64,000 bases of DNA from Anatilimnocola aggregata (GTDB lineage Bacteria; Planctomycetota; Planctomycetia; Pirellulales; Pirellulaceae): positions 8,370,001-8,434,000 of the forward strand of contig NZ_CP036274.1 in assembly GCF_007747655.1 (NCBI RefSeq), in the 5' to 3' direction. The notes beneath the pieces are model-generated. The model saw only the letters and a program-made list of their open reading frames with translations, made no database searches and was not told the DNA's origin. Numbering within the stretch: the stretch's first letter is position 1; the number at the start of each line of letters is the position of its first letter. Of this stretch, positions 24,613 to 29,226 are shown one piece after another. A program made the position numbers and the translations under genes.

Positions 24613-26232
24613 TTAAACTTGGAAAACGCCCAGGCGGTAGGGTTCGTCGCTGGCATGGCGGGTAACGACTTCGAGCGACTGAATAAGGACGTCGCGAGTT
24701 TCGCTCGGCTTGATGATGGCATCGACCCACAACCGGGCAGCGGCGTAGTGGACGTCCATTTGCCGCTCATAGTCGCCGGCAACCTTCGCGCGGAGCTGAT
24801 CGAGTTCCTCACCGTCCGTCGCATGCCCTTGTTTCTTCAAGCTGGCGATCATGACATCGAGGAGTGTGTTCGTGGCCTGCGCGGCACCCATCACGGCGCA
24901 GCGAGAATTTGGCCAGGCAAAAATGAAGCGTGGATCGAAGGCTTTGCCACAGAGTGCATAGTTGCCGGCGCCAAACGAACCGCCGGTAATCAGAGTTAAC
25001 TTGGGCGAACGGCTATTGCTGACGGCCGAGACCAGCTTGGCACCAGCCTTGATGATTCCTTCGCGCTCGCTGTCGCGGCCGACCATAAAGCCGTTGACGT
25101 CCTGCAGGAAGAGGAGCGGAATAAAGTCCTGATTGCAGTTCATTACAAAGCGGGCCGCTTTCTCGGCCGAGTCGACGTAGACGACGCCGCCGAACTGAAA
25201 TTCGCCGCGAGCCGTTTTAATGCGATGGAGTTGATTCGCGACGATCCCCACGGGAAAGCCACCGATGCGGGCGGTGCCGCAGACGAGCGTTTGACCGTAG
25301 TCGGCTTTGTATTCGTCAAAGCTATCAGCATCGACCAGGGCTGCGAGCAGATCGCGCACGTCAGATTGGGCGCGATTCTCGCCAGCAGCAAAGGCGCTGA
25401 GTGTTTCCGCGGGCTGGGCTGGCTCTTGGCTTGGCTTGCGACCGAACGGCGGAGCAGGAATCGCCGGGTCGGCGGGCAACAAACCAACCAAGTCGCGCAG
25501 GCGCTGCAAGCAGGTGGGCTCGTCCTTCTCGCGATAGTCGATCGTGCCGCTGACTGCGGCATGCATTAGCGCGCCGCCTAGTTCTTCGCTGTTGACATCC
25601 TGCCCAATGGCAGATTTCACCAGCGCTGGCCCAGCCAGATAGAGCCCGGAGCCTTCGGTCATGAGTAACTTGTCGCAGAGGACGGGAAGGTACCCGCCCC
25701 CCGCGACGCAGTTGCCGAGGATGGCTGCGTACTGCGGAATGCCCGCGGCCGAGATCACCGCGTTGTTGCGAAAGATGCGACCGAAGTCGTCTTCATCGGG
25801 AAAGACATCTTCTTGCAGGGGCAGAAACACACCGGCGGAATCGACGAGGTAAATCAGAGGCAGGCGATTGAGAAAGGCAATCTTCTGCGCGCGGAGCACC
25901 TTCTTGGCTGTCATGGGAAAGAACGCGCCAGCTTTGACCGTGGCGTCGTTGGCAATGATCATGTGCCGCCGCCCGTTCACCTGGCCAATTCCGCACACCA
26001 CGCCAGCGGCGGGCGCACCTCCCCAGTCGGCGTACATCTCGAAGGCGGCCCAGAGTCCAATCTCAAGCCACGGAGAAGCCTGGTCGAGCAGCTGAGCGAT
26101 TCGCTCGCGGGCAGTCCCGCGGTTCTTGCTGTGTTGTCGCTCGATCGCTGCGGACCCTCCACCTTCTCGCAGGCGCGTCTCTTGCGCTTCCAGATGCTGT
26201 GGATCTGACGAGGCTGCGTTAGCAAGTGACAT
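24613..26232 (-). CDS. Acyl-CoA carboxylase carboxyltransferase subunit
   Basis: The 539-residue protein has the two-lobed crotonase-type carboxyltransferase layout. The N-lobe contains KNRGTARERIAQLLDQASPWLEIG and HMIIANDATVKAGAFFPMTAKKVLRAQKIA, followed by LPLIYLVDSAGVFLPLQEDVFPDEDDFGRIF (about residues 125-155). The C-lobe has FNxQDFIPLLFLQDVNGFMVGRDSEREGIIKAGAKL and ITGGSFGAGNYALCGKAFDPRFIFAWPNSRCAVMGAAQA. The overall pattern is closest to methylcrotonyl/geranyl/propionyl-CoA carboxylase beta subunits, which transfer CO2 from biotin to an acyl-CoA. The biotin carboxylase/carrier partner is not in the window. The last part of the N-lobe shows a Pro/Ala-rich insertion (about residues 245-270). 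Confidence 0.88.
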   Translation of the reverse strand: MSLANAASSDPQHLEAQETRLREGGGSAAIERQHSKNRGTARERIAQLLDQASPWLEIGLWAAFEMYADWGGAPAAGVVCGIGQVNGRRHMIIANDATVKAGAFFPMTAKKVLRAQKIAFLNRLPLIYLVDSAGVFLPLQEDVFPDEDDFGRIFRNNAVISAAGIPQYAAILGNCVAGGGYLPVLCDKLLMTEGSGLYLAGPALVKSAIGQDVNSEELGGALMHAAVSGTIDYREKDEPTCLQRLRDLVGLLPADPAIPAPPFGRKPSQEPAQPAETLSAFAAGENRAQSDVRDLLAALVDADSFDEYKADYGQTLVCGTARIGGFPVGIVANQLHRIKTARGEFQFGGVVYVDSAEKAARFVMNCNQDFIPLLFLQDVNGFMVGRDSEREGIIKAGAKLVSAVSNSRSPKLTLITGGSFGAGNYALCGKAFDPRFIFAWPNSRCAVMGAAQATNTLLDVMIASLKKQGHATDGEELDQLRAKVAGDYERQMDVHYAAARLWVDAIIKPSETRDVLIQSLEVVTRHASDEPYRLGVFQV

Positions 26233-26564
26233 TCGATACCCAATCTATTTGCGGGGTGCTTTGCGGGCCCTTGTTTTTAGCAGCTGAGTTGGCCGCTTGG
26301 GCAGCTAGTTCGTCACGATGCTCGTTTGCCGGCCAGGCGTTCGCGTCCCCAGCAAGGCAAGAGCGAGTTTCAGCGGGCAAAATTGCCCCGCAGCTTACCA
26401 ACATAGTTTAGCGGGATTTCGTACGAACGGCCCTAAGAGTAGTGCGCTGCAACGATTAACTGAATTGTGGCATCGAGCTTCGCCGGATTGCGGCATAGAG
26501 CTTGCATTACTTTGATTTAAGAAGATTTCAATAAATCTGCCGAACAATTTCACGGGGAATAGTC
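26233..26564. other. Divergent intergenic region, no gene
   Basis: This 332-bp stretch separates the carboxyltransferase gene from the first secreted paralogue. It has no coding frame of merit. Its notable content is the duplicated sigma-54-like motif near 26464-26506. Confidence 0.6.
26464..26506 (+). promoter_or_regulatory. Duplicated sigma-54-like promoter motif
   Basis: CGGCATAGAGCTTGCA at 26491-26506 has GG and GC at the exact -24/-12 spacing, with TTGC intact and a partial -24 box (GGCAT against GGCAC). A copy 23 bp upstream (ATTGTGGCATCGAGCTTCGC from 26464) differs at three positions and keeps the -24 box but has TTCG in place of TTGC. The proximal site would start transcription about 48 bases before the ATG at 26565. 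Confidence 0.5.
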
Positions 26565-27677
26565 ATGAAGTGTTGCTGGAAGTTCGCGGTTGCCATGTTG
26601 CTCGGAGTAGCCTCGCTATCTCCGATTTACGCCCAAGGGAATGCCCAAGGTAACAATGGCGGCCAAGGTAACAATGGCGGGCAAAATGTTGGTCAAGGCC
26701 AAGCCAACGTCGCGGCCCAAGGAGCTAACCGACAGCCTGCAAACACGGCTGGCCGGCGGCCCGACGTCGCGGCCCAAGGTCCAAACGCCCAGCCCGCTAA
26801 TACCGCTGGGCGGCGGTTTGATGTCGAACCGCAAAATCCGCAGCCTGGCGACCAACAACAAGGTGTGTTGCAAGCACAGGGCGTGAACCGACAAGTCGGC
26901 CAGGGGCAGAATAACCAGAATGGCAACAATCAGGCCCAGGGTGTCAATCGTCAAGTCGGCCAAGATAGCGCTCAGCAACTGAATGGCAATCGGAATGGCA
27001 ACAACCAAAACACCAGTGGCATGCTTGACCAACCGCTTGGGTCGGATCAGGTCTTCGACTCGGGCGGCGGTTATACTCCTGCTAACCTGTCTGGGTTCAG
27101 CAATGCCTCCAGCATCGACGAAAGCATTGCCAATGGCAGTGCGCGAATCTTGCAGGGGGCCGGCGAGTACAACCGTAATTCGGCCGACGCTGTGAAAGCC
27201 CTGCAACAAGCCCGCACGCTGGCAATTCATAATGAACGACTTGCACTGAAGACCTACTACGAGCTGAAGGAATTGAATGGGGGCAATCGGTCCGACACGC
27301 TAACTATTCCGAAGGAAAAGCTCGATCAATGGAATCGCGAAGATCAGCCGAACCGTTTGACGCAGCGGGAATACAACTCCGATGCTGGGACCTTGAAATG
27401 GCCAGCCATTCTGCGGGCCGAAATCTTCGACGCTCAGCGTCTGGCACTCGAGAACATGTTTGCTCGCCGCACCGCCAGCGAGTTCGGCGTGAGTTCTAAC
27501 TTCTACCGCGAAGTAAATCACAACACCGTCCTCATCCAGGACCAGTTGAAGGCCTACTTGCGGAGTGAAGAGAAGTGGTTCACCGACCAGGAATACATCG
27601 CCGCCCAGAACTTTCTTAGCAGTCTTAGTCACGAAGCACGGTTAGCTCCGGATTTAGACGGACTGGCTGATAAATAG
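26565..27677 (+). CDS. Secreted protein with Asn/Gln/Gly-rich N-terminus (paralogue 1)
   Basis: The 370-residue protein has a signal peptide (cleavage after IYAQ) and a low-complexity segment to about residue 160. That segment is built from NNGGQG units and two copies of a VAAQG-N-QPANTAGRR-DV unit, followed by two copies of AQGVNRQVGQ. From about residue 180 the chain is homologous to the protein at 27998-28723 along its whole length. Shared blocks include ARILQGAGEYN, KEKLDQWN-EDQP-RL-REYNSD, LFARRTA-EFGV, DQLKxYLRSE, QEYIAAQNFL-SL and ARLAPDLDGLA. I do not recognise the domain. It is helical and extracytoplasmic. It has its own promoter-like motif and terminator. Confidence 0.75.
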   Translation: MKCCWKFAVAMLLGVASLSPIYAQGNAQGNNGGQGNNGGQNVGQGQANVAAQGANRQPANTAGRRPDVAAQGPNAQPANTAGRRFDVEPQNPQPGDQQQGVLQAQGVNRQVGQGQNNQNGNNQAQGVNRQVGQDSAQQLNGNRNGNNQNTSGMLDQPLGSDQVFDSGGGYTPANLSGFSNASSIDESIANGSARILQGAGEYNRNSADAVKALQQARTLAIHNERLALKTYYELKELNGGNRSDTLTIPKEKLDQWNREDQPNRLTQREYNSDAGTLKWPAILRAEIFDAQRLALENMFARRTASEFGVSSNFYREVNHNTVLIQDQLKAYLRSEEKWFTDQEYIAAQNFLSSLSHEARLAPDLDGLADK

Positions 27678-27700
27678 CCAACCCGACAATTCATCACAGC

Positions 27701-27750
27701 ACCCGCTGGATGGGTGCGGCTCGCCTGGAAGGTTGGCCGCACCCTGTTTT
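27701..27750 (+). terminator. Terminator T1
   Basis: GGGTGCGGC (27712-27720) pairs perfectly with GCCGCACCC (27736-27744) and is followed by TGTTTTGCTTT, 34 bp after the stop of paralogue 1. The loop contains CCTGGAAGGTT, which is shared with terminator T2. Confidence 0.8.
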
Positions 27751-27909
27751 GCTTTCTTGCAGGTGGTTCAGCTCGGCTCAAAATGAGATGAGTGACACCG
27801 GAATGAGACAGGTAGGAGCGTTGTGAGCTGATTCTAGATTTGCCCAAAAGATGCGGAACTTCCGCACTCAATGACACTTATGGCATTCCACTCCCGTCGC
27901 CACACGAGT

Positions 27910-27926
27910 TTGGCACGGTGATTGCA
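27910..27926 (+). promoter_or_regulatory. Sigma-54 (-24/-12) promoter
   Basis: TTGGCACG-GTGA-TTGCA matches the known sigma-54 consensus (YTGGCACG-N4-TTGCW) at every conserved position. The expected start of transcription is near 27937, giving a leader of about 60 bases before the ATG at 27998. Activation would require an enhancer-binding protein; none is encoded in the window. Confidence 0.78.
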
Positions 27927-27997
27927 ATTGATCTCTACCAGAGAAAGTCAAACTTACAACGAATGGACTCGAATTCGTTTACACGGGGAACATAGCC

Positions 27998-28723
27998 ATG
28001 ACTCGGTTCTGGAAATTTGCGTCAGCTGTTGTGTTGGGTCTTGTTTCCGTCTCGGCTGCCAGCGCTCAAACATATGGACCGATGGCCGGCGGATACAGCA
28101 CGGGAACCTTTTTTGGCGGTGCTCCCATGCTCGCCAATCACCACTCGTCGACCATCGACGAAGGTTACATGACAGGTTACTCGCGCGTGCTGCAAGGGGC
28201 GGGAATTTACAACGCTTTGTCGGCCGAAGCATACAACCGCATGCAAGACGGTTATGCCAAGGAACTCGACAACAAGCAGCGATATGTGAAGACATACTTC
28301 GAAACGAAGCGGCTCAACGCCAGCTATCGGGCGGAGACGATGCCGGCTCCTTTGTCGAAAGAAAAGCTCGATCAATGGAACCTGCAGGATCAGCCCGAGC
28401 GTCTCAGCCGTCGGGAATACAACTCGGATACGGGTTCGGTGCAATGGCCGGCCGTGTTGCAAGCTCAGGTCTTCGATGGTAACCGCCTGTTGCTTGAGGA
28501 CCTGTTTGCTCGCCGGACAGCCAATGAATTTGGTGTGAACAGCCCGTTCTATCGCCAGGTGAATGCCAGCACTGCTCAGATCAAAGATCAGCTGAAGAAT
28601 TACCTTCGCAGCGAAGACCGGTTCTTCAGCCATCAAGAATATGTGGCCGCTCAGAACTTTTTGAACAGCCTGACGCAAGAAGCCCGTCTGGCTCCCGATC
28701 TTGATGGGCTGGCCGCGAACTAA
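27998..28723 (+). CDS. Secreted helical protein (paralogue 2)
   Basis: The 241-residue protein has a signal peptide (MTRFWKFASAVVLGLVSVSAASAQ) and directly enters the domain shared with paralogue 1, lacking the Asn/Gln/Gly-rich segment. The best conserved stretch is the C-terminal half, from SKEKLDQWNLQDQPERL to EARLAPDLDGLA at the very end. No catalytic motif, cysteine pair or membrane anchor is seen. The arrangement (own sigma-54-like promoter upstream, own terminator downstream) means each paralogue can be transcribed alone. The function is unknown; a secreted, condition-dependent envelope or extracellular protein is inferred. Confidence 0.78.
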   Translation: MTRFWKFASAVVLGLVSVSAASAQTYGPMAGGYSTGTFFGGAPMLANHHSSTIDEGYMTGYSRVLQGAGIYNALSAEAYNRMQDGYAKELDNKQRYVKTYFETKRLNASYRAETMPAPLSKEKLDQWNLQDQPERLSRREYNSDTGSVQWPAVLQAQVFDGNRLLLEDLFARRTANEFGVNSPFYRQVNASTAQIKDQLKNYLRSEDRFFSHQEYVAAQNFLNSLTQEARLAPDLDGLAAN

Positions 28724-28750
28724 CGGTCGCCTTTAATCATACGGGTGGAT

Positions 28751-28806
28751 ACCCGCTGGGAGGGCACGGTAAGCCTGGAAGGTTTGCCGTGCCCTCATTT
28801 TTTTTC
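28751..28806 (+). terminator. Terminator T2
   Basis: GAGGGCACGG (28760-28769) pairs with CCGTGCCCTC (28787-28796), followed by ATTTTTTTTC. The element aligns without gaps to T1: the loop is nearly the same while stem bases change in compensating pairs. Its right arm overlaps the stop codon of the convergent Nudix gene. Confidence 0.88.
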
Positions 28807-29226
28807 TTGACCGAGGAACTCTTCGACTGCGGTTAAGAGTTGATCGATCGTCTGATGCTGGATGTGGTGCGGCGGATTCCACTTCACCCATTCGTAGTCT
28901 GGGTGCTCGGTGGTCTTGATTTTCACCGGCTTGAGTAGCTTGGCCAGGTAAATGACGACGGTCTTGTGGCAGCGTTCGCGAAAGCGCTTGGAGTTCACTT
29001 CGTACTGCGTGATCCAGCGAAAGCCATCGATCAGCTGAATCTCTTTGGCCTTGATGCCCGTTTCTTCGCGCAGCTCGCGCAGGGCGCATTCTTCGTCGGT
29101 CTCGCCTTCGTCCAGGTGCCCCTTGGGCAAATCCCAGCGGTGAGCATGCTTCATTAATAGAAACGAGAGCTCGGGCTCATCTCGCATCACCAATACGCCG
29201 CAAGCGCGAATCTCTTTGAGCTTCAT
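28795..29226 (-). CDS. Nudix hydrolase
   Basis: This 143-residue cytoplasmic protein has a complete Nudix box. GHLDEGE is followed by TDEECAL and RELREETGI (about residues 36-58), matching G-x5-E-x7-REUXEEXGU, the magnesium-binding site for cleaving nucleoside diphosphate-X compounds. Length and surrounding motifs (KHAHRWDLPKGHLDEGE, then W-x-Q-Y-x-V) resemble bis(5'-nucleosyl)-tetraphosphatase-type members, which degrade Ap4A. The specific substrate is inferred. The end of the gene overlaps the right arm of terminator T2. It may share transcription with bioD, whose stop lies 48 bp upstream. Confidence 0.9.
   Translation of the reverse strand: MKLKEIRACGVLVMRDEPELSFLLMKHAHRWDLPKGHLDEGETDEECALRELREETGIKAKEIQLIDGFRWITQYEVNSKRFRERCHKTVVIYLAKLLKPVKIKTTEHPDYEWVKWNPPHHIQHQTIDQLLTAVEEFLGQEKK

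Follow-up and report, generated by a model that had tools for sequence, protein, structure and literature searches.

What do two adjacent genes for secreted proteins of no recognisable family do, and what switches them on? The question is raised by a tandem pair, P1 and P2, in the window, the 64,000-nt stretch of DNA analysed here (G000:C1:8370001-8434000), which belongs to a genome assembled as a single contig of 9.0 Mb. The pair lies on the + strand between two genes of the - strand, one for a carboxyltransferase and one for a Nudix protein. Its coding features are as follows.

26565..27677, + strand: P1, predicted exported protein of 370 residues; an ORF homologous to P2 and a row of family alignment A1.
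26634..27020, + strand: Asn/Gln/Gly-rich low-complexity segment of mature P1, containing short tandem repeats (18 nt and 57 nt).
27105..27674, + strand: conserved helical domain of P1, about residues 181-370, from the match to P2 and alignments A1 and A3.
27998..28723, + strand: P2, predicted exported protein of 241 residues; an ORF, with family alignment A1 and an AlphaFold2 model.
28151..28720, + strand: conserved helical domain of P2, with a long helix, a beta hairpin, the conserved Trp-Pro and a C-terminal helical bundle, from alignment A1 and models.

The two proteins were 57% identical over P2 residues 31-239 (E 4e-70), a shared domain of about 200 residues, which confirmed a preliminary description of the locus as adjacent genes with a common helical domain. 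The sequence blocks quoted there were present, except that P1 has QREYNSD where P2 has RREYNSD. A signal peptide, claimed for each protein, could be read by eye in both (ending ..IYAQ in P1 and ..ASAQ in P2), and the additional Asn/Gln/Gly-rich repeat segment reported for P1 was indeed there, with 18-nt and 57-nt tandem repeats; it would serve as a linker inserted between signal peptide and domain. P1 and P2 were the only two family copies found in a search of the genome. A third match (E 0.1) was rejected as a copy, as it is a different Gly-rich protein.

The history of the pair was not simple. In the only other genome searched from this genus, the sister genome, one copy lies beside the same carboxylase gene, and neither of the two copies has the Asn/Gln/Gly-rich stretch. 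In the tree, P2 grouped not with P1 but with the sister-genome copy from another locus, and therefore the duplication seems, from this branching, to predate the divergence of the two species. We abandoned the idea of a recent tandem duplication in place in view of this grouping, of the sister copy at the same carboxylase gene and of the lack of the Asn/Gln/Gly segment in that copy. The sister copy at the shared locus branched outside P1 and P2, which counts against a simple duplication story.

Of 60 related genomes searched with P2, 33 gave matches (56 in all, of which 55, P1 and P2 included, were kept and one short match, G040:C86, was omitted). With a family profile, 131 of 198 genomes drawn from the same class gave a match, some of them over half the domain only, and in a phylum-wide draw the four genomes matched, out of 149, were all of that class. 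In a scan of named genomes, 33 of 33 named loci were planctomycete, from Rhodopirellula, Stieleria, Roseiconus, Aporhodopirellula and many MAGs. As judged from these matches, the family is confined in our finds to the class Planctomycetia, and it is undescribed in the libraries searched. Within the 55-row alignment A1, W150 was invariant and M1, G69, A78, N92, P151, R163 and F221 were nearly so. Both P1 and P2 have W150-P151, G69, A78, N92 and R163 together with the roughly 200-residue homology, and they matched the profile, of which both are rows, at E 6e-56 (P1) and 4e-71 (P2). A hydrophobic signal region was seen in 87 of 88 family proteins, with start codons picked by a score that favours one. 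In genomes of another family of the class, f23 (G174:C11:77212-78093 and G156:C229:12254-13081), the N- and C-terminal halves of the domain matched separately within one ORF of about 400 residues, as if an insert had divided the domain.

No credible match to the 55 members was found in Pfam (best single-member E 0.0021, to an unrelated family), nor in NCBIfam for the 34 members of alignment A4 together with P1 and P2 (best E 0.0053); these weak rows, nearly all to single members, were judged to be chance. The P2 sequence matched no solved structure, and four profile matches to solved structures (E 1.4-5.5) were likewise put down to chance. AlphaFold2 models of P2 (mean pLDDT 82, pTM 0.54; core domain 85 and 0.58) comprised a long helix, a short helix, a small beta hairpin right before Trp-Pro, and a helical bundle, for which Foldseek gave no match at E <=0.001. 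A profile of the four-row alignment A3 found no relative in viral contigs, and neither the family nor its pairing with a HEAT gene (below) was described in the open-licence literature, as far as titles, abstract openings and excerpts of PMC3482391 and PMC5394234 go. The absence of a recognisable family, as first suspected, was thus upheld by the profile and structure checks (Pfam, NCBIfam and solved structures), which found no characterised domain. The accompanying idea of an undescribed system in the window held for the unrecognised secreted family; the family is class-wide, and the system is clearer in relatives, beside a HEAT gene.

That gene emerged from clustering the neighbours of the family, 305 ORFs from 83 family loci (four duplicate loci, and L004, which is covered by L034, were omitted). 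The dominant neighbour group was a HEAT-type family, present at 47 of the 83 loci (for example L065:3625-5388), a figure biased upward because 33 loci came from a query of HEAT-linked members; 29 of 55 is fairer. The HEAT gene was downstream on the same strand in 33 cases (gaps of 0-163 nt) and divergent in 14. Pfam HEAT_2 (PF13646) matched all five neighbours scanned, at E 2.5e-49 to 1.2e-65, and a hydrophobic N-terminal segment was present in 41 of the 41 examined of the 47.

The pairing was also evident in the reverse direction. Among 60 relatives, 29 of the 30 strongest HEAT matches lay at most 2 kb from a family gene, and the thirtieth (G043) lay near a partial family match (E 2e-14); these 30 were taken from 41 HEAT rows, the other 11 being weaker, partial matches (E 1e-47 to 1e-31) with no listed family gene nearby. 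Class-wide, all 50 HEAT matches at E 1e-60 or better were within 2 kb of a family gene, in 26 cases sharing its strand and in 24 lying on the other one. The profile used was itself built from family-gene neighbours, the top six first-look candidates per genome were scored, most half-length family matches were left out of this count, and 13 of the 50 genes are also among the 30 from relatives.

P1 and P2 are not of this kind. Instead of an exported HEAT gene, their neighbours are the carboxyltransferase and Nudix genes, and no HEAT partner was found at E 1e-30 in the window's genome or the sister genome; the best match in the former was a fragment (E 5e-19, 88 of 573 positions). Together with both sister copies, they fall in a 22-row clade of orphans, that is, copies without a HEAT neighbour (support 94/94, with the bootstrap not settled). 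On a tree of 54 family proteins (G054:C123 omitted), the HEAT label changed three times, compared to 18.3 times in shuffles. Among 33 genomes, 16 had HEAT-linked copies only, nine had orphans only and eight had both.

HEAT-linked family proteins and their neighbours probably bind each other. The pairing across the class suggests that one early role of the family was to bind an exported solenoid, and that orphans then lost this role or took other partners; the role of the pair may not carry over to P1 and P2, which have no HEAT partner. When the two classes were compared (five long-branch or truncated rows left out), the residues kept in both included few polar ones (T52, N92, Y100, R163 and R173), and P1 and P2 are probably non-enzymatic, for which this pattern is weak evidence. 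Other residues were characteristic of one class: R93, L141, P143 and T145 of the HEAT-linked proteins, and F159, G179 and E214 of the orphans. These class-specific residues may mark a contact surface.

Tight linkage of two genes in many genomes is also what a conflict module would give, with the helical protein as effector, the HEAT protein as immunity protein, and P1 and P2 as effectors or remnants without an immunity gene. HEAT repeats do appear as an immunity type, planctomycetes included, in the portion of PMC3482391 that lists such types. We give this idea hardly any credence, as the family is spread class-wide with a similar make-up, its kept residues do not make up a set that looks catalytic, and a quarter or so of the genomes (the nine of 33) hold orphan copies only.

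To ask how P1 and P2 are expressed, we turn to the DNA around them, where the following elements were located.

26491..26506, + strand: sigma54-type -24/-12 motif of P1, CGGCATAGAGCTTGCA, beginning 74 nt before the ATG; 14.4 bits.
27911..27926, + strand: sigma54-type -24/-12 motif of P2, TGGCACGGTGATTGCA, beginning 87 nt before the ATG; 19.6 bits, perfect.
27712..27758, + strand: terminator-like hairpin of P1, stem 27712-27744, with an interrupted T-rich tail; from the fold and a conserved element.
28760..28806, + strand: terminator of P2, 17-pair stem 28760-28796 and T run; from a terminator scanner, the fold and a conserved element.

Motifs were scored with a matrix whose weights were set from the sigma54 consensus, with a site threshold of 13 bits. 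The claim that each gene has a -24/-12-type promoter motif of its own was borne out, since both have an element at promoter distance, perfect for P2 and of 14.4 bits for P1. The P1 site is imperfect, with GG-N10-GC intact, and the runner-up within 250 nt upstream scored 3.9 bits. Six sites reached 13 bits on the two strands of the window, the P1 and P2 motifs being two of them, and all four members of the P1/P2 clade had a sigma54-type site. The perfect pattern TGGCACG-N4-TTGCW occurred four times in the 9.0-Mb genome, P2 motif included, and a reversed control pattern also occurred four times, so the number alone is uninformative and it is the placement of sites that counts. No sigma70-type site was found on the + strand of 26230-28860. 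The genome has rpoN, with one match (PF04552, 221 bits). This gene (L095, L179; G000:C1:8364836-8365309) lies shortly beyond the edge of the window, some 31 kb away from P1.

Downstream, the terminator described for each gene was clear for P2, with its 17-pair stem and T run. The P1 hairpin, of similar shape and with a poorer T tail, is only terminator-like and was absent from the scanner's list. Similar hairpins occur 3' of both copies in the sister genome, where the stem sequence differs and the pairing is kept. A conserved element, CCCGCTGG..GGG..CCTGGAAGG, surrounds the hairpins (window 27702-27732 and 28752-28782), and genome-wide it was found only after P1 and P2 (<=3 mismatches). Rfam had no match in 26230-28860. 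As each gene has its own motif and its own hairpin, each looks like a separate transcription unit.

Sites of the same type recurred upstream of other family genes. At 13 bits or more they preceded 15 of 55 genes in a first set and three of 27 in a second, or 18 of 82 together, compared to one of 201 other ORFs from the same loci and the window (Fisher p 7e-10, which is too small a value, as the family rows are related and the 201 ORFs were called mechanically, some of them lacking their own promoter or not being genuine genes). The lone background site is inside the preceding ORF, and the opposite strand of family upstream regions had none (0/55 and 0/33). Excluded from the 82 were L067, L077, L079, L080, L085 and L086 (duplicates, a truncated ORF or a short upstream region), and the clade analysis was also done without G054:C123. 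Sites were found before 13 of 26 orphan genes and two of 29 HEAT-linked genes (p 6e-4), an excess that stems from few independent events and for which a paired tree test had no power. A third set, drawn from additional genera and orders and comprising 21 family genes (four of 25 loci, already counted, were left out), had no site of at least 13 bits, giving 18 of 103 for the three sets pooled. We therefore dropped sigma54 control as a mark of the whole family; as far as predicted sites tell, it is a trait of some lineages, mainly orphan ones.

The result for the third set also fits another account, in which the -24/-12 motifs are chance and P1 and P2 are housekeeping secreted proteins with ordinary promoters. 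The imperfect P1 site agrees with it, as do genome-wide motif totals that about equal those of the control. Yet chance would not readily produce the excess over background ORFs, the strand asymmetry, sites in every member of the P1/P2 clade with that of P2 perfect, or the lack of a sigma70-type site in the region searched, and we consider this account very unlikely.

If sigma54 does act here, what would it respond to? Sites with at most one mismatch numbered 90 genome-wide, compared to 84 for the reversed control pattern, so that single targets may be chance. Of 89 such sites, 42 were inside long ORFs, and 21 were followed, 35-130 nt further on, by a likely gene start that has a ribosome-binding-like sequence; in the reverse direction this held for four. 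Nine of ten downstream proteins scanned had a Pfam match: CsrA, Cpn10, HSP20, DUF2383, Transgly_assoc, DUF1328, short-chain dehydrogenase, KaiC and alpha-amylase. Further downstream proteins we take to be GroEL, trigger factor, HflX and a YqjD-like protein. Sites before CsrA, GroES, Hsp20 and small general-stress proteins were those at L161, L137, L060, L106, L118, L128 and L059. Two more sigma54-like sites, at L127 and L175, lie about 72 nt upstream of the starts of small exported proteins rich in Gly/Tyr or Gly/His.

From the genes behind its sites, it is as if sigma54 runs a general stress programme in this organism. Such company is to be expected, because csrA and chaperone genes are named among the sigma54 targets of planctomycetes in PMC12316311, as excerpted. 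In an excerpt of PMC2754498, no regulation of R. baltica rpoN was observed under heat shock and its expression fell in high salt, and a sigma54 promoter was proposed before a thioredoxin gene of the common stress response. The trigger suggested in the preliminary description, nitrogen limitation or biofilm conditions, found no support, as the genes behind similar sites point to general stress.

A putative stress regulon makes it natural to ask if P1 and P2 are chaperones of the envelope that bind unfolded exported proteins under stress, with the HEAT protein of other loci as a co-chaperone or docking platform. Spy and Skp bind unfolded exported proteins under stress in this way. The family proteins are exported by prediction and mostly helical in the models, and the same kind of site precedes chaperone genes; however, none of the 55 members gave a credible Pfam match to a periplasmic chaperone family such as Spy/CpxP, and the strictly kept Trp with its preceding beta hairpin suggests a specific rather than a general surface. 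We regard a chaperone role as unlikely. A role at the cell surface or in a matrix, in which the Asn/Gln/Gly segment of P1 and the Gly/Tyr-rich N-termini of others would make cells adhere to one another or to a surface, seems improbable as well. Low-complexity N-terminal stretches are present in P1 and many relatives, some of them Gly/Tyr-rich, and work on other phyla connects sigma54 with the bacterial exterior (PMC3162934, whose text does not name planctomycetes). The low-complexity part is variable, though, and missing in both sister copies, it is the helical domain that has been conserved, and no known adhesin domain was matched in Pfam.

The reading that we favour, tentatively, is that P1 and P2 are helical proteins which are produced on demand through sigma54, exported, and used as scaffolds or adaptors. 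The family, export signals, motifs, hairpins and neighbour pairing can be read in the DNA; promoter use, the stress trigger, binding and the scaffold role are what we infer from them. Each gene would respond to the firing of an NtrC-type activator through a sigma54 promoter of its own, and be co-induced with stress genes for CsrA, GroES, Hsp20 and small membrane stress proteins. Outside the cytoplasm, P1 and P2 would then act as a scaffold or adaptor that keeps the envelope in order. In the HEAT-linked class, the family protein and the exported HEAT solenoid would bind each other, either on the cell surface or in the periplasm. Fold searches gave no match that points to a scaffold; the top VIA rows, with Z of 7.7 and 7.8, lie where chance may place helical models.

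More speculatively, and with some doubt, we can imagine that Planctomycetia have an undescribed two-protein envelope module, in which a small helical protein and a HEAT solenoid, both exported, bind each other and shape or guard the atypical periplasm of planctomycetes. The sigma54 orphans, P1 and P2 among them, would be a stress-time version without the solenoid or with other partners. A class-wide family with a steady HEAT neighbour and a sigma54 branch offers specific genes for testing what builds or protects the planctomycete compartment, and gives a handle on an uncharted part of the planctomycete cell envelope.

How do these proteins compare to known systems? The C-terminal part of the models aligned with four-helix bundles of the Avd/S23 type (8ub8, 4dwl and 2rld) over 90-94 residues with Z of 7.0 to 7.8, a range that helical bundles may give by chance, and the P1/P2 family has no sequence match to them. 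HEAT-repeat (alpha-solenoid) proteins are matched by the HEAT-linked neighbour through HEAT_2, as above, and this neighbour differs from them in its export signal and its pairing with a gene for a helical protein; P1 and P2 have neither such a neighbour nor a strong homologue of it in their genome. With the sigma54 (RpoN) regulons of Planctomycetota and relatives, the locus has in common the -24/-12 motif, rpoN and the csrA and chaperone targets (PMC12316311, as excerpted). The secreted family of P1 and P2 was not found named as a target in the excerpts of PMC12316311 and PMC7482065, and it provides sigma54 in this phylum with a candidate extracytoplasmic target. In Chlamydia, which belongs to the same superphylum, sigma54 has been proposed to control membrane remodelling (PMC7482065, as excerpted).
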